32,191 nucleotides of DNA from Alphaproteobacteria bacterium (GCA_029212835.1 JARGPE010000013.1:1-32191); one strand, 5' to 3'. Positions 8,116-30,079 are shown, numbered from the stretch's first letter. The notes: generated from the letters alone by a model not told the origin. Program-made: numbers and translations.

Positions 8116-8619
8116 TTATGCTTCGCCTTGGCAATCAAGCAGGGCTGCTTGCACGGCTTCCTCTGGCTTGTAACCGCCCCACAGCAGAAATTGGAAGGCA
8201 GGATAAAAGCGTTCGCATTCGGCCAGGGCGATATCCATCAAGTCTTCTAGTTGCTCAACAGAAAAGCCGCCCATTCCACGGGTTGGGATGGTATGCCGAT
8301 AGGTCGGAGAACCGCTTTCGGAACACAGATCAAAATGACCCATCCACATTTTCTCATTGATCAGGGCCAGCAGCTCCACCACGCCCTTGCGGCGGTCGCC
8401 CGGGATCTTCAAATCAAATGTGCATGTGTAGTAAAAGGCATGCATATCTTCACGCCATACGAATAGCATCCGATAATCACACCAGCCGCCCGTTGTCTCG
8501 ACGATCAGTTCTTCATCGTCAGAGCGTTCAAACGGCCATTCATTGGCTTGAAACATCGCTTCAAGGATATCGAGCGGGTTAGCGAGTTGTCCGGAATGAT
8601 CGACCTGCAAACTGGTCAT
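8116..8619 (-). CDS. YbjN domain-containing protein
   Basis: ANPLDILEAMFQANEWPFERSDDEELIVETTGGWCDYRMLFVWREDMHAFYYTCTFDLKIP is typical of alphaproteobacterial YbjN-domain proteins; start at MTSLQVD. Confidence 0.75.
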   Translation of the reverse strand: MTSLQVDHSGQLANPLDILEAMFQANEWPFERSDDEELIVETTGGWCDYRMLFVWREDMHAFYYTCTFDLKIPGDRRKGVVELLALINEKMWMGHFDLCSESGSPTYRHTIPTRGMGGFSVEQLEDLMDIALAECERFYPAFQFLLWGGYKPEEAVQAALLDCQGEA

Positions 8620-9036
8620 TGGTTCTCTCCCCTTCGAAGGCTCGGAGGATGGGGAATGCCAATTTTGACAGTCATGACAGGGCATGAGACTCAAAACTCT
8701 GCTATCCGCAACCGTCCGTGCCGCGATCCGCGTTGATTTCCACCTCTCTCCAGAGTGTCCAGATGTCACATCAATATATAGGTATCTATGCGACATCTGG
8801 TGAGATCTAACGTTTCACCACACAAGAACTAGACTGCCATAGGGGGTTTCGCGGCGCAAAGACTTTTTAATAGAAAGTTTTATGTCAGCTGTTTTCCCGT
8901 ATGCAATGACTCGCCATTCTGTGAAAGCCCGAAGGATGAAATTCTCTCTTTTTGTGGGGCGATAGATGCTTTTAGAAATTGGATCAGTAGGCTAGCGTTC
9001 TGTCACAAAGATATTGCATGGGAGAAATAGGAAAAA

Positions 9037-10005
9037 ATGGAACAAGAACACAGAGTGCTGATCACCAACGACAATCCAGAGAAATTGGCACCATTATTTG
9101 AAGAACGTTTCCCGGATTTACCAATTCGATTCCTCAGCGTTGCTGACGAACTGGATAAGACGCTGGCGGAATTCAACCCGACCGTGATTTTCGGTTATCC
9201 CGGCGAGCCGGTTCCGAAGGCCAAATTCCCGGTTATGATTAACCATCCATCTGTGCGATGGATTTCCAACAGCGGCGCTGGTGTTGAGCATATGGGGGAT
9301 TGGAATCCAAAGCAAAAGATTGTCACGAATGCTTCCGGTGTGAATGCTCCATTTCTGGCGCAATATGCAATTGCCGCCCATATGTCCGCAAATATCGGGA
9401 TGCCACTTTATGCCCGGCAACAAAGAAAGAAACTCTGGCGTATGGAGGAATGGCAACCCTTTGATGGGCGTCGATTCTGCATCATTGGACTTGGCAATAT
9501 CGGACAGGCCGTCGCTGGCTATGCCAAGGCGCTGAAACTGCGCGTTGTGGGCACACGGGGCACCGCGCGCCCGACCCCAAATGTGGACGAGGTCTATGAT
9601 TCGGACAATATTATGCGCGCCTTGGTTGGGGCTGAATTCGTGTCGGTTCACACCGCGCTGACACCAGAGACACGGGGATTGATCAGTGATGACGCCTTTG
9701 CGGCCATGGCCGATGGTGCGATTTTTCTGAATGCGTCCCGTGGTGCTGTCGTGGATGAAGATGCCCTGTTGCGTGCCCTAGACAGCGGGAAGGTAAAGAC
9801 GGCAATCCTGGATGTGTTCCAGCAGGAACCTCTGCCTCAGGATCATCCCCTATGGACGCATGAAAATGTGATTATCACGCCGCATATGGCTGATTCGGTA
9901 AAAGATTGGCATATCAACAATGCTCGCGCCTTTTGTGATAATCTGGACCGCTGGCTGGCCGGAGAGCCGCTGAACAACATCGTTGATCCCAAGAAAGGAT
10001 ATTGA
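9037..10005 (+). CDS. D-2-hydroxyacid dehydrogenase (glyoxylate/hydroxypyruvate reductase-like)
   Basis: GLGNIGQAVAGYAKALKLRVVGTRG, HTALTPETRGLI, FLNASRGAVVDEDALL, ILDVFQQEPLPQDHPLW; Shine-Dalgarno present. Confidence 0.88.
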   Translation: MEQEHRVLITNDNPEKLAPLFEERFPDLPIRFLSVADELDKTLAEFNPTVIFGYPGEPVPKAKFPVMINHPSVRWISNSGAGVEHMGDWNPKQKIVTNASGVNAPFLAQYAIAAHMSANIGMPLYARQQRKKLWRMEEWQPFDGRRFCIIGLGNIGQAVAGYAKALKLRVVGTRGTARPTPNVDEVYDSDNIMRALVGAEFVSVHTALTPETRGLISDDAFAAMADGAIFLNASRGAVVDEDALLRALDSGKVKTAILDVFQQEPLPQDHPLWTHENVIITPHMADSVKDWHINNARAFCDNLDRWLAGEPLNNIVDPKKGY

Positions 10006-10668
10006 TCAGATATCACCGGGAAAGACTGGCTCTTTGTCACCGGCCTGCCATGCTGGGTATTTGGCCATGATCCCTTCGAACAGAGGGGATGAGAGATGAC
10101 CAGTAAGCCAGCGCTGCAGATGGGGCAGGGGCTGCGCGTCAAACCAGTCCCGATCGGTATTGGCAAACTGGCGGATGAAGGGGAATAAGGCCGCATCCGC
10201 CAGGCTGATCTGCGCCCCAAAAAGCTGATCTGTTTCTGCCAGCCGGTCGTTTAATTCAATAAGGATATCAAAACCTGCCTGCCGATGTTCTGTCGCGTCG
10301 GTCACGTCATCGTAGCGATGGGGATATTTGTATCGGTCCAGATGATGTTTGAAGGGACCGTCATTCCGGTCAATCAAGTCAATCATCTCTGATCGCGTCC
10401 CTTGTGGCGGGGATAACCAGTGACCAGGGTCATTTTGGTTCAACGCCCACAGCATTATATCCAGACTTTCTTCCAACACATCTCCTTGCGGTAAGTGCAG
10501 TACCGGAACCGTGGCTTTAGGGGAAATTTCAATCATCTGGGCCGGCTTATCGCGCAGCACCACTTCCCGTAGTGCGCATTTCTGGCGACTGACGCTGAGC
10601 GCCAGACGGGCACGCATCGCATAGGGGCAGCGCCGGAAGCTATATAGAATTGGCAATGTGTCAGTCAT
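10006..10668 (-). CDS. Glutathione S-transferase family protein
   Basis: N-terminal thioredoxin-fold [40 protein letters not shown] at 10668 overlaps the trhO stop. Confidence 0.85.
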
Positions 10669-11671
10669 CGGCCTTGGCGTGCGCTTGTATCTGCGATTGC
10701 GCATTTACCCTGGACTGATCGCCGATATGCATCCGACCCTGCGCCTGTGCCAGTTCCACTTGCCGCTGACGCTCTCGAAAGCGCTCCTTGCGGGTTTCAT
10801 CATGGGCATCATAGCAGGCAGGGCAACTGACGCCGGGTACGTATTTCCAGGACTTCATATCCCCTGCATCAACCGGCTGACGGCAAGCGTGACAGACCTG
10901 ATAGCTGCCCAGTTCCAGCCCCTGTTTAACAGAAACGCGCTGGTCGAATACGAAGCACTCGCCTTGCCAAAGAGATTCTTCTGCCGGGACTTTTTCCAGA
11001 TATTTCAGAATTCCGCCCTTCAGATGGAAGACGTCGGAAATACCCTGTTGTTTGACAAAGGCTGTCGCCTTTTCACAGCGAATTCCTCCGGTACAGAACA
11101 TTGCCACTTTTTTCCCCGCCAGAGCATCGGGCGTCAGGTCCGGTTGGGATTGAAACCAGGTTGGGAAATCACGGAAGGTTTCTGTCTTTGGATCAATCGC
11201 ACCCTGAAAAGTGCCAATACCAACCTCATACTCATTGCGGGTATCGATCACGATCACATCGGGATCGCTGATCAGGGCATTCCAATCCTCTGGTGCGACA
11301 TAGGTACCAACCGTTTGGGTCGGATCAATCCCCGGCACGCCCATCGTGACGATTTCTTTCTTCAGCTTCACCTTCATACGATAGAAGGGGATCTCCGTTG
11401 CATGGGATTCTTTATGCTCAAGATCGGTGCAGTTTAAGATCCGTTTGATTCCGGCCAGGGCTCCGTCAATGCCTTTGCGACTGCCAGCGATGGTCCCGTT
11501 GATGCCTTCCTCTGCCAATAGCAGGGTCCCGGTCACGCCAGCCCCTAGGCAGGCCGTCAGGATTGGCTCCCGATAGCGCGTATACTCTGGCAAGGCGATA
11601 AACTTGTACAAAGCCGCGACGACAATCGCTGGATTGTGTTTGGCTGAAGAGGGCAAGGATGCGTCGGTCAA
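10661..11671 (-). CDS. trhO: Rhodanese-related tRNA uridine 5-oxyacetic-acid-pathway hydroxylase (TrhO/YceA family)
   Basis: [49 protein letters not shown]; catalytic loop [20 protein letters not shown]; likely TTG start at 11671, because the longer GTG ORF begins within a terminator hairpin. Confidence 0.85.
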
Positions 11672-11690
11672 AACCAGGAAACTCCCAATA

Positions 11691-11751
11691 TCGCTCGAAA
11701 ATGAAAATGGCGAGGCGTGGTGTATCACGCCTCGCCCTTAATTTCGAGCGA
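11691..11751 (-). terminator. Nested double hairpin between gdhA and trhO (terminator)
   Basis: Inner perfect 11-bp stem GGCGAGGCGTG/CACGCCTCGCC (11709-11719/11726-11736); outer stem TCGCTCGAAA/TTTCGAGCGA (11691-11700/11742-11751). Confidence 0.7.
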
Positions 11752-11764
11752 AAGGGACCTGCCC

Positions 11765-13120
11765 TTACATCACCCCAAATGCCAACATGGCATCGGCAAC
11801 CTTTACGAAGCCGCCGATATTGGCACCTCGCACATAGTCGACAGTGCCATTGACGCCATGTCCGGCCCCGAATTGGTGGCAGGTCTGGTGGATCGTGCTC
11901 ATAGTGGTTTTCAATAGATTGCGCAGTTCCTTATCGGTCCAGGAAACGCGGGCGGAATTCTGAGACATTTCCATGCCAGACACCGCAACACCACCTGCAT
12001 TCGCCGCCTTAGCAGGGCCAAACAACACACCTGCTGCCAGAAAGGCCTTCACACCGGCATCCACTGTCGGCATGTTTGCCCCCTCAGACACAGCTTTGAC
12101 TCCATTGGCAATCAGGGCCTTTGCCTCTTCGCCACTGATTTCATTCTGTGTTGCGCAGGGCAGGGCGTAATCACAGGGCACCGACCAGGGGCGTTTTTTC
12201 TCATGGAAGGTCGAGCCAGAAAACTCCTTAGTATATTCGGAAATACGCCCATTGTTCTTCTTCAGGGTTTTGACCCAGTTGATCTTTTCTTCCGTCATAC
12301 CAGCCGGATCATGAATGAACCCGCCGGAATCCGATAGGGTTACAACCTTCGCACCCATCTGACAGGCTTTTTCCGCCGCATGGATCGCAACATTGCCAGA
12401 GCCTGAGACGACAACGGTTTTACCTTCAAAATCCAGACCCTGAACGGCCAGCATATTCTCCATGAAATAGACCGCGCCATATCCGGTGGCTTCTGTGCGG
12501 ATCAGTGATCCGCCATATTCCAGGCCTTTCCCGGTCAACACACCTTCGAACTTGTTGGTCAGGCGCTTATACTGACCGAACATATAACCGATTTCTTTAG
12601 CGCCAACGCCAATATCCCCCGCAGGGACGTCTACATCTGGGCCGATATGGCGGAACAGTTCCGACATAAAGGCCTGGCAGAATCGCATGACTTCAGCATT
12701 TGACTTACCTTTAGGGTCGAAATCTGAACCACCCTTTGCGCCCCCCATTGGCAGGCCGGTCAAGGAGTTCTTTAACTGTTGCTCAAAGCCCAGGAATTTT
12801 AGAACCGACAGGTTGACCGTTGGATGAAAGCGACAACCGCCCTTATACGGGCCAATGGCATTGTTAACCTGGACACGAAATCCGCGATTGACGTGAACGG
12901 TACCATCATCTGCCTGCCAGCAGACGCGAAAGATGATGGTGCGGTCCGGCTCGCACATGCGTTCAAAGATTTTAAGATCGCGATAGATTGGCTTGGTGTC
13001 CATGAAAGGAATAATTGATTCTGCTACTTCATGAACAGCCTGATGAAATTCATGTTCGCCTGGATTTTTTGCTTTCAGATCATCCATAAACGCGGCGATC
13101 TCAGATGCATGCGATCCCAT
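11765..13120 (-). CDS. gdhA: NADP-type glutamate dehydrogenase
   Basis: GPYKGGCRFHPTVNLSVLKFLGFEQQLKNSLTGLPMGGAKGGSDFDPKGKSNAEVMRFCQAFM, VSGSGNVAIHAAEK, EGANMPT; about 451 aa. Confidence 0.95.
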   Translation of the reverse strand: MGSHASEIAAFMDDLKAKNPGEHEFHQAVHEVAESIIPFMDTKPIYRDLKIFERMCEPDRTIIFRVCWQADDGTVHVNRGFRVQVNNAIGPYKGGCRFHPTVNLSVLKFLGFEQQLKNSLTGLPMGGAKGGSDFDPKGKSNAEVMRFCQAFMSELFRHIGPDVDVPAGDIGVGAKEIGYMFGQYKRLTNKFEGVLTGKGLEYGGSLIRTEATGYGAVYFMENMLAVQGLDFEGKTVVVSGSGNVAIHAAEKACQMGAKVVTLSDSGGFIHDPAGMTEEKINWVKTLKKNNGRISEYTKEFSGSTFHEKKRPWSVPCDYALPCATQNEISGEEAKALIANGVKAVSEGANMPTVDAGVKAFLAAGVLFGPAKAANAGGVAVSGMEMSQNSARVSWTDKELRNLLKTTMSTIHQTCHQFGAGHGVNGTVDYVRGANIGGFVKVADAMLAFGVM

Positions 13121-13297
13121 ATTGTGCTTCCTCGTAAGTTGATTAATTCAATATATTTGTAAAGGGTAGGCTTTAAATTAGATATTCGAAAACTCTAATT
13201 TGAACTTTCAGATGAAATTGATAATTAAATCCGTCCATATTGCCGCGCTCTTACATAGCTGCAATGTTAGTGGTGCTGAAAATAAAGGAAATAAGTA

Positions 13298-14455
13298 ATG
13301 CCATCGTCTGAATCCCATCCAGAAATCAGAGACTCTGTTGCCCGTCTATGCCAAGGTTTTCCAGGCGAATACTGGCGTGATTTGGACCAGAGACAGGCCT
13401 ATCCCGCTGCCTTTGTCTCGGCTCTGACAGAGTCTGGATTTTTGGCAGCCTTGATCCCAGAGGAATTTGGTGGGGCTGGTCTGGGTCTGTCCGCTGGCGC
13501 TGCGATACTAGAAGAAATCCATAAACAGGGTTGCAATGCGGCTGCCTGCCACGCCCAGATGTATACTATGGGGACTGTGCTACGGCATGGTAATGATGCG
13601 CAGAAGCAGATGTATCTGCCAGAGATTGCAGCCGGTAACCTGCGGCTTCAGGCCTTTGGTGTGACAGAACCGACCAGCGGCACTGACACGACGGCACTTC
13701 GCACTTTTGCGCGGCGGGATGGCGATGATTATATCGTAAATGGTCAGAAGATTTGGACCTCTCGCGCAGAGGAATCTGATTTGATGGTTCTGCTGTGCCG
13801 CACGACCCCGCGAGAGGATGTGAAGAAACGCACGGACGGTCTGTCGGTCCTGCTGGTCGATATGCGTGAGGTGCGCGGCAAGTCCCTGACCATCCGCCCA
13901 ATCCGTACGATGATGAACCATGCAACAACTGAGGTTTTCTTCGACGACATGCGTGTTCCTGCCTGTAACCTGATCGGGGAGGAAGGCAAAGGCTTCTCCT
14001 ATATCCTGAGTGGCATGAATGCGGAGCGAATCCTGATCGCGTCGGAATGTATCGGCGATGCGAAATGGTTCACAGAAACGGCGACAAATTATGCCAAAGA
14101 CCGCAGTGTCTTTGGCCGCCCCATTGGCCAAAATCAGGGTATTCAATTCCCCATCGCCAAGGCCTATGCCCATATGCGGGCAGCAGAATTGATGCTGCAC
14201 CGTGCTATTGAATTGTATGAGGTTGGGGAAAACCCTGGAGAAGAGGCCAATATGGCAAAAATGTTGGCCGCCGATGCTTCCTGGGAGGCGGCAGAGGCTT
14301 GCCTGCAGACCCATGGTGGCTTCGGCTTTGCCGCAGAATATGACGTGGAACGCAAATTCCGCGAAACCCGCCTCTATCAGGTGGCCCCCATCTCCACCAA
14401 TCTGATCCTAAGCTATATTGCCGAGCATGTTCTGGGGCTGCCACGGTCTTATTAA
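13298..14455 (+). CDS. Acyl-CoA dehydrogenase
   Basis: AFGVTEPTSGTDTTALRTFARRDGDDYIVNGQKIWTSRA; QTHGGFGFAAEYDVERKFRETRLYQVAPISTNLI. Confidence 0.9.
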   Translation: MPSSESHPEIRDSVARLCQGFPGEYWRDLDQRQAYPAAFVSALTESGFLAALIPEEFGGAGLGLSAGAAILEEIHKQGCNAAACHAQMYTMGTVLRHGNDAQKQMYLPEIAAGNLRLQAFGVTEPTSGTDTTALRTFARRDGDDYIVNGQKIWTSRAEESDLMVLLCRTTPREDVKKRTDGLSVLLVDMREVRGKSLTIRPIRTMMNHATTEVFFDDMRVPACNLIGEEGKGFSYILSGMNAERILIASECIGDAKWFTETATNYAKDRSVFGRPIGQNQGIQFPIAKAYAHMRAAELMLHRAIELYEVGENPGEEANMAKMLAADASWEAAEACLQTHGGFGFAAEYDVERKFRETRLYQVAPISTNLILSYIAEHVLGLPRSY

Positions 14456-14457
14456 GG

Positions 14458-15939
14458 TTAGCGCATCACAAAAGGATTGGACATGGGCGCGTCGGAGACG
14501 TTGATCCAGGTTGTACGCGTACGGGTATAGTCCAGGATGGACTCCATGCCGGCCTCTCGTCCATAACCGGATTGATTGAAGCCGCCAAAGGGCGCGATTG
14601 GGGATATGGCGCGGTAGGTGTTGACCCAGCAGATCCCGGCACGCAGGCGCGATGAGACCCGGTGTGCGCGTGCTAGGGATTGGGTAAAAATGCCAGACCC
14701 CAAACCATAATCGCTGTCATTGGCCAGAGCGATAGCCTCTTCTTCGGTATCGAAGGGGATCAGGGTCATGACGGGTCCAAACATTTCGACCGTCAAGGTT
14801 TCCAGGTCGGGCTGGTCATGGGTCACCAGGGTGGGCATGAAATAGTTGCCGTCTGTCCCCTCCTTGCGCACGCCCCCAAATCGAATTTTCCCTCCCTGAT
14901 CAATGACCTTTTGCAGGGTCTCCTCGATCCGGGAGATCTGGGTCATGCTGCATAATGGGCCGATATGCGTCTTGGGGTCTTGTGGGTCGCCCACGATCAG
15001 GTCCTTGCATTTCTCCTGTACCAGAGTAGCGACCTTTTCATAGAATGAGCGGTGGACGTAGCCCCGAGATCCGGCAACACAGGATTGTCCCGATGCGCCA
15101 AAATTGCCGGCGATCAATCCATTGGCGGCACTGTCCGGGTCGGCATCCTCGAAGACAAGAATCGGCGACTTCCCGCCCAGCTCCAGGGTTGTGACGGCAA
15201 AATTCTCAGCTGAATTGCGCACGACATGGCGCGCAGTTTCCGGGCCGCCAGTAAAGGCGATGCGATCTACTTTTGGATGCCGGGTCAGGGGGATAGCACA
15301 TCCGTCCGCATCCCCGGTTACGACAGAAACGACTCCCGCCGGAAAGCCCGCCTGTTCGATCAATTTGGCAAAATGCAACATAGGGGCGGGGGCGATTTCT
15401 GAGGCCTTCAGCACGACGGCACATCCTGCCGCCAGGGCCGGTCCCAGCTTTGTCGCGGTCAGGAACATTTGCGCATTCCAGGGAACGATGGCCGCCACCA
15501 CACCGATAGGCGCACGCTGTGTATAAACATGCATGTCTGGCTTATCGATGGGTAGAACCGCCCCTTCGATCTTGTCGGCCAAGCCTGCGAAATAGCGATA
15601 GTAATCGGCGACATAGCGGGTTTGCCCGACAGTTTCCGTCGCCAGCTTCCCGCTGTCTGTAGTTTCTAATCGGCCCAGTTCTTCCGCATTCTCTTCAATC
15701 AAGGCCGCGAGACGGTACAGCAGCTTCCCCCGCTGTGTTTGCGTCATATCGCGCCAGACAGGGTCATTCAGAACCCGGAGAGCCGCAGCGATGGCACGGT
15801 CGATATCTTGCGGGGCAGCACAGGCAAAAGTCGCCCAGACCTGCCCGGTGGCGGGGTTGCGACTTTCCATCACCTGTCCCGTCGCGCCGTCGCACCAGGT
15901 GCCGTCGATGAACAATTGAAAATGGGGGAGGTTGGTCAT
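14458..15939 (-). CDS. NAD(P)-dependent aldehyde dehydrogenase
   Basis: VVAAIVPWNAQMFL, TLELGGKSPILVFEDAD, GASGQSCVAGSR, EMFGPVMTLIPF; about 493 aa. Confidence 0.92.
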   Translation of the reverse strand: MTNLPHFQLFIDGTWCDGATGQVMESRNPATGQVWATFACAAPQDIDRAIAAALRVLNDPVWRDMTQTQRGKLLYRLAALIEENAEELGRLETTDSGKLATETVGQTRYVADYYRYFAGLADKIEGAVLPIDKPDMHVYTQRAPIGVVAAIVPWNAQMFLTATKLGPALAAGCAVVLKASEIAPAPMLHFAKLIEQAGFPAGVVSVVTGDADGCAIPLTRHPKVDRIAFTGGPETARHVVRNSAENFAVTTLELGGKSPILVFEDADPDSAANGLIAGNFGASGQSCVAGSRGYVHRSFYEKVATLVQEKCKDLIVGDPQDPKTHIGPLCSMTQISRIEETLQKVIDQGGKIRFGGVRKEGTDGNYFMPTLVTHDQPDLETLTVEMFGPVMTLIPFDTEEEAIALANDSDYGLGSGIFTQSLARAHRVSSRLRAGICWVNTYRAISPIAPFGGFNQSGYGREAGMESILDYTRTRTTWINVSDAPMSNPFVMR

Positions 15940-15949
15940 GGTGGCTCCT

Positions 15950-16984
15950 TTAGCTGAAGGCAGGCATCACGTCATCGATGAAGCGGGACAGGGAAGCGCG
16001 TTTCCGCTCCGCCGTCATGCCACTGTCGATCCAGAATGAAAATTCATCATAGCCCAGATCCTCAATGCGTTTCAGGCGGTCAATCACCTCCTGAGCCGTC
16101 CCCATGGTCAGGTCGCGGCGCATGTTTTCTGGGGCCATCATGGCATTGCCTGCAATTTCAGACTCTTCCAGTGTTTGGATCAAGCCTTGAGAGACAGGAC
16201 GCTTGTTCTGAAACCAGGCACCGAAGTAACAATAGAAGCGACTGAAAATGTTGGCAGCTTCTTGGGCATCGTCCTCGTCGGCCGCAACATAGGTATGGTG
16301 CAGCAGCATGACTTTGGGTCTGGGGCCGGTATGGCTGGCGCAGGCCGCATTGAACCGCTGCATCAGGCTTTCGATTTCGTCTGATCCCTGCCACAGCGGC
16401 GTCACTTGCACATTAAAGCCATTATGCACGGCGAATTCATGGCTGTTGGGATCACGGGCGGCAACCCAGATGGGTGGGCCATTGGCTTGTTTGGGTTTTG
16501 GAGAGGCCGTCGTGCTGGGGAATTGAAAGAATTCCCCCTCATGGGCGCAATCCCCCGCCCAGAGTTTCGGCAACAGAGGTGCGATTTCCCGCAACCGCTG
16601 GCCCGCCTGCCAAGCGTCCAGGCCGGGATGCAGGCGTTCATATTCATAACTATAGGCACCGCGCGCAATCCCCAGCTCCAGCCGCCCCCCGGTGACCAGA
16701 TCGGTCATTGCGGCTTCTCCCGCCAGTTTGATCGGGTGCCAGAAGGGGGCAACCACTGTGCCGGTTCCCAGGCGCAGGTTCTTTGTATGACGCGCGACAT
16801 CGGTCAGGGTGATGAAGGGGTTGGGCGCGATGGTGAACTCCATCCCGTGATGCTCCCCGGTCCAGACCGCGCGCATTCCGCCCTCGTCGGCCATCTGACA
16901 CAGATCCAGGAATTCCTGATACAGAACATCATGGGGTTGGTCCGCGTTCAGCCGTTCCATATGGGCAAATAGTGAAAATTCCAT
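15950..16984 (-). CDS. LLM-class (luciferase-like) flavin-dependent monooxygenase
   Basis: AVWTGEHHGMEFTIAPNPFITLTDVARHTKNLRLGTGTVVAPFWHPIKLAGEAAMTDLVTGGRLELGIARGAYSYEYE. Confidence 0.9.
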   Translation of the reverse strand: MEFSLFAHMERLNADQPHDVLYQEFLDLCQMADEGGMRAVWTGEHHGMEFTIAPNPFITLTDVARHTKNLRLGTGTVVAPFWHPIKLAGEAAMTDLVTGGRLELGIARGAYSYEYERLHPGLDAWQAGQRLREIAPLLPKLWAGDCAHEGEFFQFPSTTASPKPKQANGPPIWVAARDPNSHEFAVHNGFNVQVTPLWQGSDEIESLMQRFNAACASHTGPRPKVMLLHHTYVAADEDDAQEAANIFSRFYCYFGAWFQNKRPVSQGLIQTLEESEIAGNAMMAPENMRRDLTMGTAQEVIDRLKRIEDLGYDEFSFWIDSGMTAERKRASLSRFIDDVMPAFS

Positions 16985-16986
16985 AC

Positions 16987-17919
16987 TTAACTTCCTCTTT
17001 GGACGGGGTGAACAGGATGCAGGTCGCCGTATTCGTCATCACCGACATACAAACCGAATTGTTGGTTCTGACTTTCCAGAATGTATCGTTCGATGATGGT
17101 TCGCTCCGCCAATGGCCCGGAAAGCGAGTCGGGCACACTTTCCAACGGCATGAAGCGGCCCAGATTCGCTACCTCTAAGGAGGGGGCTAGGGCGCGATAG
17201 AAGGTGTAGCTGCGATCGGCCTTTGTATCGGTATAGATTGAATAGACGGCACCGATTTCGATGCCTGTTCCATCTAGGGCGTGGGTCAGGGTATCCAGGG
17301 CGCTTGTGCGCGCCGGGACCCGAAAATGAGGTAAACGTAGGCCGGTTTCTGTGGGTGTCAGTAGAAGCTGATCTCCATATGAAATAATGCCGCCAACGAA
17401 GCGCTTCTCCATTTCTGTTGCGACACCTGTCTGTGCCTTGTGCTCCAGGCTGCGGCTGAAATATCCACCGCTGGCATAACCCAGGCCCGGCTTGTCATTG
17501 GTGTCGAAATTCAGAACTTCCCCGATCAGAATATCGTGGTCGCCTGCTTCCACACGCTCGTGAACTCGACAGGAGAACTGTGCGGTTGCGCCCTCAATCA
17601 AGGGGCTGCCCCAATCATCCCTTGTCCAGTTCACTTGACCGAACCGATCTTCTGTCCGACCGGCAAACAGGGTGGAGATTGCAGATTGATCATCGGCCAG
17701 AATGTTTACGGCAAATTGGGTGCAGGTATGAAATAGGTCATAACTACTCAAACGTTTTGCGGGACAGACCAGCAACAAGGGTGGGTCCAGAGAGACCGAG
17801 GTGAAGGAATTTGCCGTGAAACCGACAGGAACGGAGTCCGGGCTCATCATGGTCACGACGGTCACACCGGTCATATAACTGCCAAAGGCGTTGCGCAGGG
17901 CGATTGGATCCAGCGTCAT
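16987..17919 (-). CDS. Flavin reductase (FMN-binding split-barrel) with C-terminal extension
   Basis: RNAFGSYMTGVTVVTMMSPDSVPVGFTANSFTSVSLDPPLLLVCPAKRLSSYDLF is HpaC-like; about 140 extra residues at the C-terminus. Confidence 0.87.
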   Translation of the reverse strand: MTLDPIALRNAFGSYMTGVTVVTMMSPDSVPVGFTANSFTSVSLDPPLLLVCPAKRLSSYDLFHTCTQFAVNILADDQSAISTLFAGRTEDRFGQVNWTRDDWGSPLIEGATAQFSCRVHERVEAGDHDILIGEVLNFDTNDKPGLGYASGGYFSRSLEHKAQTGVATEMEKRFVGGIISYGDQLLLTPTETGLRLPHFRVPARTSALDTLTHALDGTGIEIGAVYSIYTDTKADRSYTFYRALAPSLEVANLGRFMPLESVPDSLSGPLAERTIIERYILESQNQQFGLYVGDDEYGDLHPVHPVQRGS

Positions 17920-17920
17920 A

Positions 17921-18742
17921 TCAGACCTCCCCCTCTGCCATCGCGAAAAATTCTGCCAGGATATTGGTGATCATCTTGGCATGGGTCATCGGAGCCATAT
18001 GGGCGGCGTCCTCAATGATATGGGCGCTCCCCTTTGGAATGATCCGGGCCAGAGCTTTTGACATTTCCGGTGTTGAATTGGGATCGCCAGCGGCGGTTAG
18101 GAGCAGCGCTGGACAGGCAATCTTTTCCAATGCCGCATCGTCTGGACCATCCGAATAGGCAAAGGCATTATAGGCTGCCGCATATCCCGGCAGGGATCCA
18201 TTCACTAACCAGTCATAGCAGGCATCATTGGCGGCTTTATTGGCCGGACTTGGTGGATTGCCAAACCAGCGTGTCAGGGTTGGTTGTGGATCAGCATCCC
18301 GACCGGACTGTGCCTGGGTCAATGAATTTGCGCGGGCGCGGACCGCCTGGGCGGAGTCCGGACTGCGGCGATAGATACTGTTCAGCGCCGCGACCGCATG
18401 GATTTTTTCCCGATAGCGTGCCGCGAGGTCCAGGGAAATCAGCGCCCCCAGGGAATGTCCGGCGATAGAGACGGGTCCAGGAATATCCTGCAGGCTGGCT
18501 GCGATCTGATCGGTATAGTCGGTCACTGTCGGGTTAGCCTTGTCGAGCAAGGGGCTGTCGCCATGCCCAGGCAAATCAAGGGCATAGACGTTGTGCCGTG
18601 TAGCAAGCCCCGGCAGAATACCGCCCCAGCTTTCGGCACGCAGGCCAACGCCATGGATCAGGACTACAGCGGGTCCCGATCCACGCTGGTGCCAGGCCAG
18701 GCCGGAGCTACTGTTAGACCGCGGCAGGGTTGTCCAGGTCAT
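17921..18742 (-). CDS. Alpha/beta-fold hydrolase
   Basis: VVLIHGVGLRAESW oxyanion region, ALDLPGHGDSP, nucleophile elbow IAGHSLGALISL, C-terminal EDAAHMAPM. Confidence 0.9.
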   Translation of the reverse strand: MTWTTLPRSNSSSGLAWHQRGSGPAVVLIHGVGLRAESWGGILPGLATRHNVYALDLPGHGDSPLLDKANPTVTDYTDQIAASLQDIPGPVSIAGHSLGALISLDLAARYREKIHAVAALNSIYRRSPDSAQAVRARANSLTQAQSGRDADPQPTLTRWFGNPPSPANKAANDACYDWLVNGSLPGYAAAYNAFAYSDGPDDAALEKIACPALLLTAAGDPNSTPEMSKALARIIPKGSAHIIEDAAHMAPMTHAKMITNILAEFFAMAEGEV

Positions 18743-19313
18743 GTCCCAGATCCTTTAGGTCCTGATAGCGATCGCCAATGCGATGATGAGGCCGTCCCCC
18801 ACTGGCACCGCCCAGCACGACGACAATCTCGTCGGCGCGCGGCGCATCGGGGATGGCAAATTGGATGGTCATATAATGGGACCGGCGGCCCGCATCATTC
18901 TTATCCATCAAGGGCACACTGATCGGGGCATTCGCACCGCCCCTGGTATTGGTGAAAGACAAATAGGATTTAGCGGCAACCGCCTCGCGGTAGTGATTGC
19001 CAAAGCGCAATGTGTGGATCAGACCCGATGCATGCTCAATCTCTCCATCTAGGCCGACGACAGCAGCCTTGCCATAAGCTTCAATTGCCTCACCGCCGCC
19101 TGCCATTGCCAGAATACGCTCAGTCAGCATGGCTCCTAAAACCGGTCCATAGGCTTGGATTTCTGGTTTTAGATCTTCGACGAAGCGTCCAGCCCAGGGA
19201 TTGCGTACAACAGCGGCGACTGCGAACAGACGCCAGGGTGTCTCTATCGACTTGAATCCCTCAATCAGCGTTTCTTCTTCAAAGGTCACAATTTTGCGAA
19301 TTTCCGGCTTCAT
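18714..19313 (-). CDS. DUF1185 ('amino acid synthesis') family protein
   Basis: MKPEIRKIVTFEEETLIEGFKSIETPWRLFAVAAVVRNPWAGRFVEDLKP resembles the DUF1185/PF06684 family; start at 19313. Confidence 0.75.
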   Translation of the reverse strand: MKPEIRKIVTFEEETLIEGFKSIETPWRLFAVAAVVRNPWAGRFVEDLKPEIQAYGPVLGAMLTERILAMAGGGEAIEAYGKAAVVGLDGEIEHASGLIHTLRFGNHYREAVAAKSYLSFTNTRGGANAPISVPLMDKNDAGRRSHYMTIQFAIPDAPRADEIVVVLGGASGGRPHHRIGDRYQDLKDLGHDLDNPAAV

Positions 19314-19365
19314 CCTATCCATCCTTATATTTGTTAAGGGGGAGTGTCGGACTGGGTGCAAAAAT

Positions 19366-19395
19366 TGACAAATGATGCTTTTGACGTCATTGTCA
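19366..19395. promoter_or_regulatory. Candidate operator in the DUF1185/LysR divergent promoter region
   Basis: TGACAAATGA...TCATTGTCA inverted repeat (one-nt difference) flanking an internal TGACGTCA palindrome. Confidence 0.4.
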
Positions 19396-19425
19396 TTATT
19401 ATTACTAATGGCTGAGTTGATGCTT

Positions 19426-20352
19426 ATGGCGCGCGCATTGCCTCCTGTGGCTTGGTTCCGAGCGTTTGAAAGCGCCGCGCGGCATTTGAGCTTTACGGCG
19501 GCTGCGGAAGAATTAGGCCTGACTCAGTCCGCCATCAGTCAGAATGTGCGGTCTCTGGAACTGCGATTTTCCACAATCCTGTTTGAACGCAAGCCACGTG
19601 GATTGGCACTGACCGATGCGGGGCGGCGGCTTCTACCAGATGTGACGGCAGCCATGGGCAGCCTGAGCAATGCAGCGGGTATTTTTGAACGGGCATCAGA
19701 CTCTGGGCTGTTGACGGTCGCAGCCAGTGTCAGTTTCGCACAATGGTATTTTGTACCCGGATTGTCGCGTTTGATGGATGCGAATCCCACCCTGTCACTG
19801 CGTGTCATCACGACGGTTTGGCCGGACGAATTCAGCCGGTCTTCAGCGGATGTGGAACTGCGGTTCGGGACAGAGTCTCATATGGGCAAGGGGGCGGAAC
19901 ATCTGGGGCCAGATGAGTTGATTGTCGTCGCTGCGCCGGACTTGATGAAACGCGTGGGGCAGCCCTTCCTATCTACTGAGTCACTGCGCCAACAGCGATT
20001 GATCCAGGCCGTTGGGACCAGCGATAACTGGAAACGCTGGGCTCAACATAGTCGCATCGCCTCTCTGCCAGAGCCGGATTTGATGGCAGATTCCCACGGA
20101 CTGGTGATTGACTTTGCGCGGGCGGGATTGGGGGTTGGCGTGACCAGCGCCTTGCTGGCCGCTCCAAGTCTCGCCTCAGGGGACCTGGTCCAGGCTCACG
20201 CCATGACAGCCCCGACCAAGGATGGTTATTTTCTTGCGACGAACCCACTGGCCGATCAGCAGGATGTTGACTTGTTCACAACGTGGCTGAAGGCGGAGAT
20301 CAGCGCTGCGACCACTCAGGCTGACCTGAAAAGACGGGCGGCAGACCCGTAG
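19426..20352 (+). CDS. LysR-family transcriptional regulator (GcvA-like)
   Basis: ARALPPVAWFRAFESAARHLSFTAAAEELGLTQSAISQNVRSLELRFSTILFERKPRGLALTDAGRRLLP; divergent from the catabolic operon; start 19408 also possible. Confidence 0.9.
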   Translation: MARALPPVAWFRAFESAARHLSFTAAAEELGLTQSAISQNVRSLELRFSTILFERKPRGLALTDAGRRLLPDVTAAMGSLSNAAGIFERASDSGLLTVAASVSFAQWYFVPGLSRLMDANPTLSLRVITTVWPDEFSRSSADVELRFGTESHMGKGAEHLGPDELIVVAAPDLMKRVGQPFLSTESLRQQRLIQAVGTSDNWKRWAQHSRIASLPEPDLMADSHGLVIDFARAGLGVGVTSALLAAPSLASGDLVQAHAMTAPTKDGYFLATNPLADQQDVDLFTTWLKAEISAATTQADLKRRAADP

Positions 20353-24173: not shown

Positions 24174-25487
24174 GTGATGACTGAGCAGAAGACACAGAGC
24201 ACCATAACCAAATTCTTTACCCGTCGGGATACGTTGAAAACGATGGGCGCAGCCGCTGGTTTGGCGGCAGGATCGCAGTTGTTGAGCGGTCGCTACGCCC
24301 AGGCACAAAGCAGTGAGCCGATCAAAATTGGCTTTCAAGCGCACCGTACTGGTATCGGTGCCTCTTATGGTCGCTGGTATGAGCGCACGACAATGGCTGC
24401 TACTCAATTGATCAATGATGCTGGCGGGATTAATGGTCGCCCGGTTGAAATCGTCACGGAAGATGACGGCACAGATCCCAAGCGCGGTGCGGAAGTGGTC
24501 GAAAAATTCGCCATTCAGCATAAAACCGATATCGTCTTTGGCACCTTGTTCAGCCATGTCGTGATCGGGTCTGCCCCGCGTGCAGGCGAATTGAAGATTC
24601 CTTATTTCGTGGTCAGCGAAGGACATCATGTCGCCAGCGGCAAGTTGAACCGTTATGTCCTGCAGCCCGGCATCACCGATGTGAAGAGCCAGGTTCAGTC
24701 CATGGCACCTTGGGTTGGCAGCAATCTGGGTAAAAAGGTTACGATGATCTTCCCAGATTTTGCCTTTGGTCATGATCACCGCGACTATTTCTCTGCCGCC
24801 ATCGCTGCCCAGGGGGGCGAGGTGATTGAGAAAATTGCAATCCCACCAACGGAACAATCCTTCTTCAAATATTTCCCACGCATTCCGAAGGAAACAGAGG
24901 TCCTGTACCACGTCATGGTCGGCCCCGCTGTTTTGACCTTTGTAAAAGAACTGGGTGAATTCTTTGGTAAGGATCGTCCGCAGATCTTTGGCTTTATCGA
25001 TAGTCTTGAAGCGGTTGATCTCGCCAATCCGGGGTTAGAAGCATTGGAAGGCACCTATTTCTGGGAAGGCTTCCCGCGTTATGCCCAGAATGATGGGGCC
25101 AATCCCCATGATGCCTTCTATCGGGAAAAGGTTGGCGTTGATGCCAATGGAGCCAGCCTGAGCGATCCGAAGGATATTTCCACCTATGCCCATATGTTTG
25201 GGTGCTGGGAGACCCTGTATATCATCAAGCAGGGTATGGAAGCGGCAGACTATAAAGGTCCGGCGGATCGCGCGAAATTGATCGAAGCGGTTGAGAGTTT
25301 CACGGATTTCCCAGAAGGTCCGGAACATCCGCAGGGTGCGAAGATATTTAATGGTCAGACCCACCAAGTCTTCGGCATTCAGAATATCAGTCAGGTCACC
25401 GATGGGAAATTGAAGGTGGTACACCGCACCTCCATCGAAGACAGCCTGTATGAGCCGGAAGTCGACTATACGAAGATGGCATTCTAG
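24174..25487 (+). CDS. Branched-chain amino-acid-type ABC transporter substrate-binding protein (Tat-type signal)
   Basis: TRRDTLKTMGAAAGLAAG twin-arginine-like signal; IKIGFQAHRTGIGASYGRWYERTTMAATQLINDAGGINGRPVEIVTEDDGTDPKRG. Confidence 0.9.
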   Translation: MMTEQKTQSTITKFFTRRDTLKTMGAAAGLAAGSQLLSGRYAQAQSSEPIKIGFQAHRTGIGASYGRWYERTTMAATQLINDAGGINGRPVEIVTEDDGTDPKRGAEVVEKFAIQHKTDIVFGTLFSHVVIGSAPRAGELKIPYFVVSEGHHVASGKLNRYVLQPGITDVKSQVQSMAPWVGSNLGKKVTMIFPDFAFGHDHRDYFSAAIAAQGGEVIEKIAIPPTEQSFFKYFPRIPKETEVLYHVMVGPAVLTFVKELGEFFGKDRPQIFGFIDSLEAVDLANPGLEALEGTYFWEGFPRYAQNDGANPHDAFYREKVGVDANGASLSDPKDISTYAHMFGCWETLYIIKQGMEAADYKGPADRAKLIEAVESFTDFPEGPEHPQGAKIFNGQTHQVFGIQNISQVTDGKLKVVHRTSIEDSLYEPEVDYTKMAF

Positions 25488-25514
25488 GGCTTGCGCCGCT
25501 TAGATTTATGACTC

Positions 25515-25547
25515 TCCGTCATCCCGGCAAATTGCTGGGATGACGGA
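25515..25547. repeat. Intra-operonic REP-like palindrome (33 bp)
   Basis: TCCGTCATCCCGGCAA-A-TTGCTGGGATGACGGA, 16-bp stem with a single G-T wobble, between the substrate-binding protein and livH genes. Confidence 0.75.
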
Positions 25548-25570
25548 AACTTTTGGACGGCAGCATCTGT

Positions 25571-26452
25571 ATGGATTTTGGACCCTATTTGCTTCTTGCC
25601 TCGCTGGAAGGGGCCGTTCAGGCGGCGGTTCTGGCGCTGACGGCTGTGGGCTTGTCGCTGGTGTTTGGTGTCATGCGTGTGGTCAATGTCGCCCATGGGG
25701 AATTCTTCATGTTGGGCGCGGTGTTGGCCTGGTGGATTTCAAACATGCTGACTGGCTCCCCTCTTTTCGGATTTCTTGCAGCGCTGATTTTTGCCCCGTT
25801 GATTGTGGCGGGCTTAGCTGCGGTTGCAGATCGATTGATCTTGAAGCGTTTGAGCTATGACCCTGAGGCGACAATCGTTGCCACCATTGGGTTGCTGTAT
25901 ATCATTCAGCAGGGCGCGCTAACCTTGTTTGGGCCAGATGCGCGTCCGGTTGCTGCTCCTTTCGATTTCCGGGTCAGCTTTCCTTGGTTCGGCTATTCTG
26001 GATATAAGATTTTTGTGATCCTGGCCTGTGTCCTGGTGCTGTTGGGCGTTTGGGCACTGCTGACGCGGACCCGGATTGGGTTGATCATGCGCGCAACCCA
26101 GTTTGATCGCGAAACGGCCCAGGCCTTCGGGATTCCTGTCGCGCGGGTCTATACCGGTGTTTTTGCCTTTGGGGCGATGCTGGCTGCCGTTGCTGCCGTG
26201 CTGATCGTACCAACACAGCAGGCGTATTACCTGATGGGGCTCGACCCGCTGTTGCTGTCCTTTATCGTTGTTATCATCGGTGGGTTAGGCAGCTTGAAGG
26301 GCACTGTTCTGGCCGCGGCGGTGATCGGGTTGAGTGACGGTATTATCACCATCTTCTTTGATCCGACGCTTGCAAAAATCCTCTCCACAATTCTGGTTGC
26401 GATGATCCTGGTATTTCGACCAACCGGCCTGTTTGGGACGGCAACGCGATGA
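25571..26452 (+). CDS. livH: Branched-chain amino-acid-type ABC transporter permease (LivH)
   Basis: GLSLVFGVMRVVNVAHGEFFMLGA; FIVVIIGGLGSLKGTVLAAAVIGL. Confidence 0.9.
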   Translation: MDFGPYLLLASLEGAVQAAVLALTAVGLSLVFGVMRVVNVAHGEFFMLGAVLAWWISNMLTGSPLFGFLAALIFAPLIVAGLAAVADRLILKRLSYDPEATIVATIGLLYIIQQGALTLFGPDARPVAAPFDFRVSFPWFGYSGYKIFVILACVLVLLGVWALLTRTRIGLIMRATQFDRETAQAFGIPVARVYTGVFAFGAMLAAVAAVLIVPTQQAYYLMGLDPLLLSFIVVIIGGLGSLKGTVLAAAVIGLSDGIITIFFDPTLAKILSTILVAMILVFRPTGLFGTATR

Positions 26453-27396
26453 AGGGGTTGATCAGCAAATCACTGGGTCTGCATCTGGGGCTGATTGCGC
26501 TGTTGTTGCTGCTGCATTTTATTTTGCCGGACTACCATCATGTCAGTCTGGCGCGGATCATGGTGTTGGCAGTCTATGCGCTGGGGTTCAATTTATTGTT
26601 TGGCTATACGGGCTTGCTCAGTTTGGGTCATGCACTGTTCTTTGCAGCAGGACTCTATGGCGCGGGGCTGTCGATGCAGTTCTTTCAATGGACGGCGGGA
26701 CCCGGATTTGTCTTTGGTCTTTTCTGCGCCATTGCCGTGGCAACACTGATTGGCATGCTGGCGCTGCGTACCGTGGGCGTCTCCTTTATGATCGTGACAA
26801 TGATGTTCGCCCAGGTCGGCTATCTGTTGATCCTGTATTACAATGAATATACCAGAGGGGATGAAGGCTTTGTGATCCTGCGGGAGCTGCGGATGCTGGG
26901 CCCGCTGGATCTGTCGGCAGAAGGGACGCGCTATCTGGTGGCCTTGGCATTGTTGGCCGCTGCAATCCTGATCAAGTTGGCATTGGTGCGGTCGCCCACG
27001 GGGCGCATTTTAGTCGCCATTCGGGAGAATGAGGAACGCACCCGGATGCTCGGCTATGACCCATTCCGTTATAAGCTGATGGCAATGGTGATTTCGGGTG
27101 GCTTTGCGGGGGCGGCAGGGGCGGCCTATGGCATTCTGTTTGGCTATGTCGGGGCCAGTTTCGCCTCCATCCAATATTCAATTCTGCCGCTGCTCTATGT
27201 CTTGATGGGCGGGGCGGGGGTTGTCTTAGGGCCACTGTTGGGCACGATTGCGATGTTTTATCTGATTGATATCGCCAGCGGCCTGACCTCGGCTTATCTC
27301 TTCTTTGTTGGTCTTGCCTTGGTGCTGCTGATCCTGGTCGCGCCAAAGGGCGTGCTAGGGACCATACGCGATCGTTGGGTGCCGTGGCTGCCATGA
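26449..27396 (+). CDS. livM: Branched-chain amino-acid-type ABC transporter permease (LivM)
   Basis: MVLAVYALGFNLLFGYTGLLSLGHALFFAAGLYGAG; RILVAIRENEERTRMLGYDPFRYKL; ATGA overlap with livH. Confidence 0.9.
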   Translation: MKGLISKSLGLHLGLIALLLLLHFILPDYHHVSLARIMVLAVYALGFNLLFGYTGLLSLGHALFFAAGLYGAGLSMQFFQWTAGPGFVFGLFCAIAVATLIGMLALRTVGVSFMIVTMMFAQVGYLLILYYNEYTRGDEGFVILRELRMLGPLDLSAEGTRYLVALALLAAAILIKLALVRSPTGRILVAIRENEERTRMLGYDPFRYKLMAMVISGGFAGAAGAAYGILFGYVGASFASIQYSILPLLYVLMGGAGVVLGPLLGTIAMFYLIDIASGLTSAYLFFVGLALVLLILVAPKGVLGTIRDRWVPWLP

Positions 27397-28130
27397 CAAC
27401 ATTGCTGCAAACCCGAAACTTGTCGAAGAATTTTGGCGGCCTGGCGGCGGTTCAATCCGTTGATTTCGATCTGCAACAGGGTGAAATTCGTGCCATCATC
27501 GGACCCAATGGGGCCGGGAAATCAACTCTCGTTGGCCTGATCAGTGGGCGCATTACCCCCAGTGGGGGCAGCATTACATTTGATGGAAAATCAATCACCC
27601 AATTGCCAGCCCATGCCAGGGTCGCGCGGGGGATCGCCTACACATTTCAGATCACAAGCATCTTTGCCAATCTGACTTGCCGGGAGAATATTCTGCTGCC
27701 AGCCCAACGCGCTTCGGTTGCTGCATCCGGCCTGTTCGGGCGTGTGGATGAAGCCGCACTGGAGCATCGTGCCGAACATATTCTGGCGCGTGTGGGGTTG
27801 GGCGATAAGGCTGATACCAAGGCAAAAGAGATGGCCTATGGGCATCAGCGCCTGTTGGAAGTCGGAATGGGATTGGCGCTGGATGCGAAATTGCTGATTC
27901 TGGATGAGCCAACGCAGGGTTTGGCAGATTCTGAAATTGCCAATTTCATCGACCTGATCCGCGCGGTGTCCAAGGATACGACGGTGCTGTTGATTGAGCA
28001 TAACATGACCGTTGTGATGGATCTGGCACAGCGGATCACAGTGATGAATTTTGGCGAAATTCTTGCCGAAGGGACGCCAGAAGAAATCCGCGCTAACTCT
28101 GCCGTTCAATCCGCGTATCTGGGGGGATAG
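27393..28130 (+). CDS. livG: ABC transporter ATP-binding protein (LivG)
   Basis: Walker A GPNGAGKST, TQGLADSEI, LIEHNMTVVMDLAQRITVMNFGEILAEGTPEEI; ATGA overlap with livM. Confidence 0.92.
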   Translation: MTTLLQTRNLSKNFGGLAAVQSVDFDLQQGEIRAIIGPNGAGKSTLVGLISGRITPSGGSITFDGKSITQLPAHARVARGIAYTFQITSIFANLTCRENILLPAQRASVAASGLFGRVDEAALEHRAEHILARVGLGDKADTKAKEMAYGHQRLLEVGMGLALDAKLLILDEPTQGLADSEIANFIDLIRAVSKDTTVLLIEHNMTVVMDLAQRITVMNFGEILAEGTPEEIRANSAVQSAYLGG

Positions 28131-28133
28131 GCG

Positions 28134-28829
28134 ATGCTGACGGTTACGGATATCGATTGCTTTTATGGCGATGTGCAGGTTTTGCGGCAATTCTCGCTCT
28201 CGGCAGCGTCCGGCGAAATCCTGTGTTTGCTGGGGCGCAATGGGGCGGGCAAGACGACGGCCTTGAAGGCGATTATGGGATTGGTTCCGCCCCGATCCGG
28301 CAGCGTGGTTGTCGATGATGTTGATTTGACCAAATTGCCCGCCCATGCCGCCCCGAAATATGGATTGGGCTATGTGCCTCAGGGTCGACGGTTGTTTTCC
28401 GAACTGACGGTCGCGGAGAATATCGAGATTGGCCTGATGGCTACCGGACAAGGCAAACCCACCCGGGATCGGGTGCTGGACCTGTTCCCGGTGCTGCGGG
28501 AAAGGCTCTCGCAAGTCTCTGGTAAATTGAGCGGCGGCGAACAACAGATGTTGGCTATGGCCCGCGCGCTGTGCACGGAACCTAACGTTCTGTTGATGGA
28601 TGAACCGACAGAGGGTTTGCAGCCCTCCATGATCGCAAAAATCAGGGAGGTCGTGGTGGCCCTGAAGCAGACGGGCGTTGCCGTTGTTCTGGTAGAACAG
28701 CGTGTCGATGCCGTTTTACCTGTCGCTGATCACGTCGCCTTCATCGAAAATGGTATGAACCGGGAAACCGTGCCGGTGCAGCAGCTGCGCGACGACCCAA
28801 GCCTGCTGCACCGCTATGTCGGGATTTGA
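28134..28829 (+). CDS. livF: ABC transporter ATP-binding protein (LivF)
   Basis: GRNGAGKTTALKAIMG, LGYVPQGRRLFSELTVAENI, LSGGEQQMLAMARAL, LLMDEPTEGLQPSMI. Confidence 0.93.
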   Translation: MLTVTDIDCFYGDVQVLRQFSLSAASGEILCLLGRNGAGKTTALKAIMGLVPPRSGSVVVDDVDLTKLPAHAAPKYGLGYVPQGRRLFSELTVAENIEIGLMATGQGKPTRDRVLDLFPVLRERLSQVSGKLSGGEQQMLAMARALCTEPNVLLMDEPTEGLQPSMIAKIREVVVALKQTGVAVVLVEQRVDAVLPVADHVAFIENGMNRETVPVQQLRDDPSLLHRYVGI

Positions 28830-28850
28830 ACAGGGATTAGAAGCGCTGGT

Positions 28851-29321
28851 TTAACAACGCTCCACCCGGCATTGGAAGCAATTGTTTGTAGCTGATCGCA
28901 TATGGATATAGGCAATCGTGTCGTCTGCAAACAGCGCGTCCAAGGCGGGGGACAGGGCGTCTATGGTCACCACTTTACCGCTGCCATAGCGGATGCGGTC
29001 ATTGTAGCCATAGCCGCGGATGAGGATCTGGGCATACTCCTGAAACAGGGCGGGGAGTGCGGCTTGGTCCGGATGGCGGGGGCAGGCCTCAGCGCATAGA
29101 AAGATGGGGCCGATCTCTGCATAGGGTTGCGGCGCGGGGAAGGGGCGGTGGGCCATAACCAGCATCCCCGCCCCTTCGGGGATATCGCGCAAACAATGAC
29201 GACAGGGATTGCCATTCCCGTCGGAAGTTTGAAGTTCCGGCACTTGCCCATTGGCATCTGGCTCCCCCCGTTGGGCGCGGCGCGCGGTTTCGGTATCAAT
29301 GGCGGCAAAGTGATAGGGCAT
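28851..29321 (-). CDS. DUF1203-like protein
   Basis: NPCRHCLRDIPEGAGMLVMAHRPF...PYAEIGPIFLCAEAC Cys-containing motif. Confidence 0.7.
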   Translation of the reverse strand: MPYHFAAIDTETARRAQRGEPDANGQVPELQTSDGNGNPCRHCLRDIPEGAGMLVMAHRPFPAPQPYAEIGPIFLCAEACPRHPDQAALPALFQEYAQILIRGYGYNDRIRYGSGKVVTIDALSPALDALFADDTIAYIHMRSATNNCFQCRVERC

Positions 29322-29452
29322 GATGTGGCCTTTGAGAAAGGGTTGAGGTTGCCTAAGCTAATGCTTGGGCTTGCGACCCGACACCCGGTTCTTGCGAAGG
29401 ACTGGTGGGATGTGGAAAACTAACGACTGGCTCCAAGGAAAAGAGGTTTCTG

Positions 29453-30079
29453 ATGATCCCGGCGGATACAGCCTTTGTGGCGATTGATGTGCAGAATGAC
29501 TTTTGTCCAGGCGGTGCCTTGGCCGTGGCCCAGGGGGATCAGGTCGTGCCCTTGATCAACCAATTGATGCCTGGGTTTTCGGTAAAGGTTCTGACCCAGG
29601 ACTGGCACCCGGCTGATCATTTTTCCTTTGCCGCCAACAGCGACGGTGCCCAGCCCTTCAGTCTTATCGATGCGCCTTATGGCCCGCAAGTGATGTGGCC
29701 GACCCATTGCGTTCAGGGCAGTGCTGGGGCTGAATTTCATCCTAATCTCAATACAGATTGTGCCGATCTGATCCTCCGAAAGGGCTATCGCGGCCATATT
29801 GATTCCTATTCCGCCTTCTTTGAAAATGACCATGTGACTCCCACCGGTCTGGAAGGATATCTGCGAGAGCGGGGCGTGAAATCCCTGGTCATGGCAGGGC
29901 TAGCGACAGATTTCTGTGTGCGGTTTTCGGCGGTTGATGCAGCAAAGCTGGGGTTTCAGGTGACTGTTCTGGATGACGGGTGCCGCGCGATTGATATGGA
30001 TGGATCGCTGGCGGTGGCGTTGGCCGATATGGCCGATCATGGCGTGACCGTCATTCCCAGCACCCGCTATGCAGCGTAA
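29453..30079 (+). CDS. pncA: Nicotinamidase
   Basis: FVAIDVQNDFCPGGALAV; TQDWHPADHFSF; MWPTHCVQGSAGAEFHP; MAGLATDFCVRFSAVDA. Confidence 0.92.
   Translation: MIPADTAFVAIDVQNDFCPGGALAVAQGDQVVPLINQLMPGFSVKVLTQDWHPADHFSFAANSDGAQPFSLIDAPYGPQVMWPTHCVQGSAGAEFHPNLNTDCADLILRKGYRGHIDSYSAFFENDHVTPTGLEGYLRERGVKSLVMAGLATDFCVRFSAVDAAKLGFQVTVLDDGCRAIDMDGSLAVALADMADHGVTVIPSTRYAA

Follow-up and report, generated by a model that had tools for sequence, protein, structure and literature searches.

A marine LysR-linked operon probably belonging to the tgn-type systems for pyridine-betaine ring opening

The window analysed here is a stretch of 32,191 nucleotides from an alphaproteobacterium (GCA_029212835.1, JARGPE010000013.1:1-32191). 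Five genes stand head-to-tail on its minus strand, accompanied by a divergent regulatory gene and an intergenic palindrome:

14458..15939, minus strand: aldehyde dehydrogenase (ALDH), TgnC-like; Pfam Aldedh, with catalytic Asn155, Glu253 and Cys287
15950..16984, minus strand: luciferase-like flavin monooxygenase (LLM), TgnB-like, proposed ring-cleaving oxygenase; Pfam Bac_luciferase, identity to syntenic LLMs, and trees
16987..17919, minus strand: flavin reductase with an extra C-terminal domain, TgnA-like; Pfam Flavin_Reduct and full-length PDB 3rh7 match
17921..18742, minus strand: alpha/beta hydrolase, TgnD-like; Pfam and invariant residues
18714..19313, minus strand: DUF1185/AA_synth protein (PF06684, E 6e-72), TgnF-like, first gene of the operon
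19394..19410, no strand: LysR box, imperfect palindrome CATTATTATTACTAATG (ATTA-N7-TAAT), shared by the intergenic regions of type-B operons (defined below)
19429..20352, plus strand: divergent LysR-type regulator (ORF open from 19372); Pfam HTH_1 and LysR_substrate

All six open reading frames lie where the initial annotation had placed them, with the gaps (10, 2 and 1 bp) and the 29-bp overlap between the DUF1185 and hydrolase genes that it had described, and Pfam agrees with each of its family assignments. The DUF1185 gene almost certainly starts at the ATG at 19313 (199 aa) and not at the TTG at 19361, because homologue lengths match 199 aa and AGGAT lies just upstream, and the LysR gene probably starts at the ATG at 19429, since the conserved box at 19394-19410 would otherwise fall within it. 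Scans for sigma-70 promoters and terminators gave site numbers no higher than in shuffles. A convergent acyl-CoA dehydrogenase gene on the plus strand (13298-14455) stops 2 bp short of the ALDH stop codon, and an NADP-glutamate dehydrogenase gene (11765-13120) lies next to it; both were rejected as operon partners, since the closest relatives (L011, L137 and L138) do not keep them at this place. A branched-chain-type ABC transporter (binding protein, two permeases and two ATPases) at 24174-30079, followed by an isochorismatase-family hydrolase, possibly serves uptake of amides or N-heterocycles.

The operon contains a two-component set of LLM oxygenase and adjacent flavin reductase, as in TgnA/TgnB. 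The reductase (~310 aa) has a second C-terminal domain and is matched over nearly its full length by PDB 3rh7, which we take to be S. meliloti SMa0793. The catalytic residues of the ALDH are invariant among relatives, as are Ser97 and His248 of the hydrolase, together with Arg126, Arg137 and Arg158 (138/138 relatives). A profile search with the hydrolase returned N-acetylaminomethylene succinate hydrolase (3kxp, E 8e-22) as one among many alpha/beta hydrolases. The LLM shares 64-69% identity with its counterparts in syntenic clusters of Sinorhizobium, Rhizobium, Acinetobacter, Burkholderia and Pantoea, and among the NCBIfam LLM families, luciferase and F420 included, no listed match reaches its curated cut-off.

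Gene content, homology, synteny, box and active-site conservation could all be read directly from the genomes compared. The order DUF1185-hydrolase-(reductase)-LLM-ALDH was seen again in 34 loci with a GntR-type and about 98 with a LysR-type regulator in Alpha-, Beta- and Gammaproteobacteria, and an arrangement repeated in more than 100 loci across three classes is not due to chance. The full five-gene order was found on pSymA of S. meliloti (where it adjoins nif genes) and in Ruegeria, Phyllobacterium and A. venetianus, as well as in Burkholderia, Pantoea, R. johnstonii, Leisingera, A. baumannii and A. junii; the rhizobial and Acinetobacter clusters carry in addition an SSADH gene and a transporter, with GntR in front. 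A tblastn search of plasmids with the LLM gave 424 records, of which 262 showed 60-80% identity, and 80 loci, almost all of them in marine bacteria, emerged from a scan of GTDB contigs.

These results bear on the alternative that the LLM is a conventional oxidoreductase of the alkanesulfonate, alkanal or F420 type whose neighbours are there by coincidence. Only generic LLM families match it, the best being TIGR04020 with 117 bits, which would suit such a reading; yet even this score is below the cut-off, as is that against the luciferase alpha family (75 bits versus 600), and the surrounding genes stay together in different classes and families. The initial annotation had offered grouping of the LLM with alkanesulfonate or alkanal monooxygenases, or lack of conserved synteny, as grounds for abandoning its proposal, and neither was observed. 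Coincidence is already refuted by the conserved synteny, and the reading as a whole is hardly credible.

The loci, which are related to one another, fall into 34 of type A and 98 of type B. A GntR gene accompanies 33 of the 34 type-A and none of the type-B loci, and a divergent LysR gene 89 of the 98 type-B and none of the type-A loci; the window operon, with its LysR gene and conserved LysR box, is thus of a separate, marine type B and not of the GntR type. The palindrome ATTA-N7-TAAT occurs in 35 of 54 type-B intergenic regions (0.26 expected from shuffles), mostly 77-82 bp upstream of the DUF1185 start. No SSADH (TgnE) gene is linked to the operon in the window or in any of the 98 type-B loci, compared with linkage in 9/34 of type A (Fisher 2e-6, a value that ignores kinship and overstates independence because the loci are related); an unlinked SSADH gene, whose product is 64% identical to that of Phyllobacterium, is present on another contig of the same genome (C254). 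A dedicated reductase is encoded in all 34 type-A and in 78 of the 98 type-B loci. In about one fifth of type-B operons (L016, L017, L034, L045, L271 and others), the reductase gene is missing and the hydrolase gene is followed directly by that of the LLM.

The two types differ unevenly in sequence. The LLM of the window is 72-80% identical to those of type-B loci (97% in the nearest relative) and 64-70% identical to those of GntR clusters, and its hydrolase is 36-40% identical to type-A hydrolases. Mean identities within and between types are 76/66% for the LLM, 77/57% for the ALDH, 54/39% for the hydrolase, 78/64% for the DUF1185 protein and 54/39% for the reductase, and type-specific sites number 32 in the ALDH and 4 in the LLM. 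The ALDH tree separates A from B (SH-aLRT 99 each), and the LLM tree places type B (support 98) beside Roseobacter type-A sequences (support 88).

Among described systems, the tgn genes of Acinetobacter baylyi ADP1 provide the same set of reductase, LLM oxygenase, ALDH, hydrolase and DUF1185 protein (TgnF), and the five-gene order is the same in Acinetobacter relatives; the window operon differs by having LysR instead of GntR and no linked SSADH, permease or porin. Compared with these relatives (L231, L233 and L005), its ALDH is 52-54% and its LLM about 64% identical. The clusters of S. meliloti pSymA (L002), Rhizobium (L009) and Phyllobacterium (L004) have an identical five-gene order and the two-domain reductase (PDB 3rh7), with 66-69% identity in the LLM and 68-71% in the DUF1185 protein, but link GntR, NIPSNAP, ABC transporter and SSADH genes, none of which accompanies the window operon. 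GntR-type clusters of Ruegeria and Leisingera (L003, L010, L237-L256), found on plasmids and chromosomes, share the gene order, come from the host genera of many type-B operons and have the LLMs closest to type B in the tree, but differ in regulator and ALDH clade and in Ruegeria are mutually exclusive with B.

On this basis, the window operon is considered a tgn-type ring-opening operon for a pyridine betaine, with a probability of roughly 85%, and the system is very probably a variant of the known tgn pathway that has its own regulator and is widespread in marine bacteria. The enzyme logic proposed by the initial annotation is well supported by synteny and sequence; so is its assignment of the substrate to the N-methylated pyridine betaines, of which the exact compound may be trigonelline, homarine or another. 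For a marine, LysR-regulated form acting on trigonelline (N-methylnicotinate), the likeliest single substrate, the chances appear about even. The Acinetobacter trigonelline pathway was reportedly detailed by Perchat et al. in 2018, with C5-C6 cleavage and with MFMB and MFMS. By analogy, the reductase would supply reduced flavin, the LLM oxygenase would cut the C5-C6 bond to give an N-formyl-N-methyl enamine aldehyde, the ALDH would convert this aldehyde (or its lactol) to a dicarboxylate, and the hydrolase would take off the formyl group to leave a product yielding methylamine and a C4 semialdehyde, which an unlinked SSADH would oxidise. The DUF1185 protein may help at a late step, and LysR is expected to bind the conserved box and respond to a pathway compound.

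In favour of trigonelline, the five-gene order is common to the Acinetobacter (L231, L233), Phyllobacterium and Rhizobium clusters that hold SSADH, GntR and a transporter, and thus all six Tgn functions together. Wild-type S. meliloti grows on trigonelline and a pSymA-cured strain does not (PMC4207669), which supports trigonelline since the syntenic cluster sits on pSymA. Heal et al. argued on steric grounds that TgnAB should not act on homarine (PMC8269262). On the other hand, trigonelline is scarce in the sea (PMC8269262), which counts against it as the substrate of marine type B, as do the lack of linked SSADH and the Ruegeria gene neighbourhood described below; moreover, the ALDH is far more diverged between A and B than the oxygenase, suggesting a different aldehyde.

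The distribution within Ruegeria provides further evidence on this question. Among 54 genomes, 26 have B, 15 have A and none has both (P = 4e-6); in a wider family sample this exclusion is non-significant (P = 0.11). On the rpoB tree the two types are interspersed; the best tree implies 11 changes between them, and its well-supported branches provide five independent contrasts (sign test 0.0625). Type B occupies one conserved site in most Ruegeria genomes, flanked by mgdABCD-tmaR, and type A several other sites, except in two genomes (G736 and G740) where it lies at the site of B with the right flank of B retained. One genome has a hybrid (L272, 525-10556), in which GntR and type-A DUF1185-hydrolase-ALDH genes are followed by an ABC transporter and an alcohol dehydrogenase, and then by LysR and type-B reductase-LLM genes. 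Exclusion, repeated replacement and the hybrid together favour a common substrate for A and B, although the exclusion could have a cause other than redundancy. At the Ruegeria site, the type-B operon adjoins SoxBDAG-like genes (L259, 13779-18264; L371, 1-5637; L372). The SoxB-like protein shares 79% identity with the protein at the mgdA position of R. pomeroyi DSS-3, a TmaR-like regulator (56%) comes next after the SoxBDAG-like genes, and neither gmaS nor mgs is evident near the operon.

This neighbourhood is relevant to the possibility that type B degrades homarine (N-methylpicolinate), in which C5-C6 cleavage of a ring with its carboxylate at C2 would lead through 2-(N-methylformamido)glutaconate to N-methylglutamate or to 2-oxoglutarate and methylamine, products for which SSADH would be unneeded. 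Besides the lack of SSADH linkage, this proposal would account for the diverged ALDH and hydrolase, the marine distribution and the adjacent mgdABCD-tmaR genes, since a part in homarine catabolism has been reported for Mgd (PMC13390433). The Mgd linkage was rejected as decisive, given that type-A clusters of Phyllobacterium and A. junii likewise have SoxBDAG as neighbours. The published hom operon is said to comprise five genes and a regulator and to yield N-methylglutamate, which fits the proposed carbon skeleton. R. pomeroyi DSS-3 removes homarine from diatom metabolites (PMC12817926), an observation of uptake and not proof of catabolism, yet its genome contains neither a type-A nor a type-B LLM. 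A report on growth of DSS-3 on trigonelline versus homarine (PMC8269262) was set aside because a correction by the authors (PMC10134881) withdrew the passage. Homarine was raised as first choice by the SSADH and ALDH contrasts and lowered again by the exclusion in Ruegeria, the hybrid, which like the exclusion points to a common substrate, and the absence of both types from DSS-3. The type-C LLM of DSS-3, L265 and others is an equally good homarine candidate. For type B, homarine appears rather unlikely, though next in line after trigonelline.

Type-C clusters (R. pomeroyi DSS-3, L353; Aminobacter, L235; Agrobacterium, L236; L265) contain the same enzyme set, including DUF1185, but their LLM is only about 40% identical, their gene order differs, RidA and carnitine-type genes are often present, and they co-occur with type B (together in six Ruegeria genomes). 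Examples are the operons of DSS-3 (10542-17175), of L265 (6875-12297; LysR / reductase-ALDH-LLM-DUF1185-hydrolase) and of L154 (7502-11879; LysR / ALDH-LLM-hydrolase); one type-C genome, of 2,753,527 bp, matches SAR116 strain IMCC1322 in size. In L234, L235 and L353, type-C LLM, ALDH, hydrolase, DUF1185 and RidA genes lie inside carnitine-type clusters with a carnitine dehydrogenase-like gene, BKACE, CoA transferase and ABC transporter. Type C may be a homarine operon, and its link to carnitine-type genes suggests that this set of enzymes is probably not confined to a single substrate. The window operon might accordingly degrade another N-heteroaromatic or betaine (a nicotinate or pyridine derivative, or another N-methylpyridinium) with the same enzymes; this is improbable, as the LLM is 64-69% identical to those of trigonelline-associated clusters and the hybrid uses trigonelline-type downstream enzymes.

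The initial annotation had regarded the DUF1185 member as unexplained by such pathways, but TgnF of the Acinetobacter pathway belongs to the DUF1185 family and in A. baylyi ADP1 stimulates TgnE-dependent oxidation of succinate semialdehyde (PMC7913881). The protein is conserved at the level of the LLM and ALDH, far above the hydrolase and reductase, with 58 sites that hardly vary among types A, B and C, and a fold search with a modest model (pLDDT 65) matched only the two known DUF1185 structures. Most type-B operons retain it although an SSADH gene is lacking in their vicinity. It is also retained in L149, from a genome that resembles SAR11 in size and GC content (1.4 Mb, 30% GC), where an operon of four genes (8144-12073) encodes DUF1185, hydrolase, LLM and ALDH, in that order, but neither reductase nor LysR. 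On these grounds, a role confined to succinate semialdehyde oxidation is probably too narrow. One guess is that it hydrolyses or tautomerises the N-methyl enamine or imine remaining after deformylation, which would serve either substrate. Extending this thought, type B could tentatively be viewed as a tgn operon that has undergone neofunctionalisation and now serves another marine pyridine betaine, be it homarine or one not yet described, with DUF1185 as a general enzyme acting on an N-methyl enamine or imine common to both routes and not as an SSADH helper; this is a possibility to be taken seriously, if not the favoured one.

Taken as a tgn-type operon, the locus belongs to a family in which three related operon types, two of them (A and B) apparently interchangeable, are now set apart, with named genes for substrate tests, and the retention of DUF1185/TgnF in type B calls into question its role as an SSADH helper. 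Plants, algae and animals use pyridine betaines as osmolytes, so the enzymes that open the rings of these compounds decide what becomes of a labile pool of nitrogen in both soil and sea.
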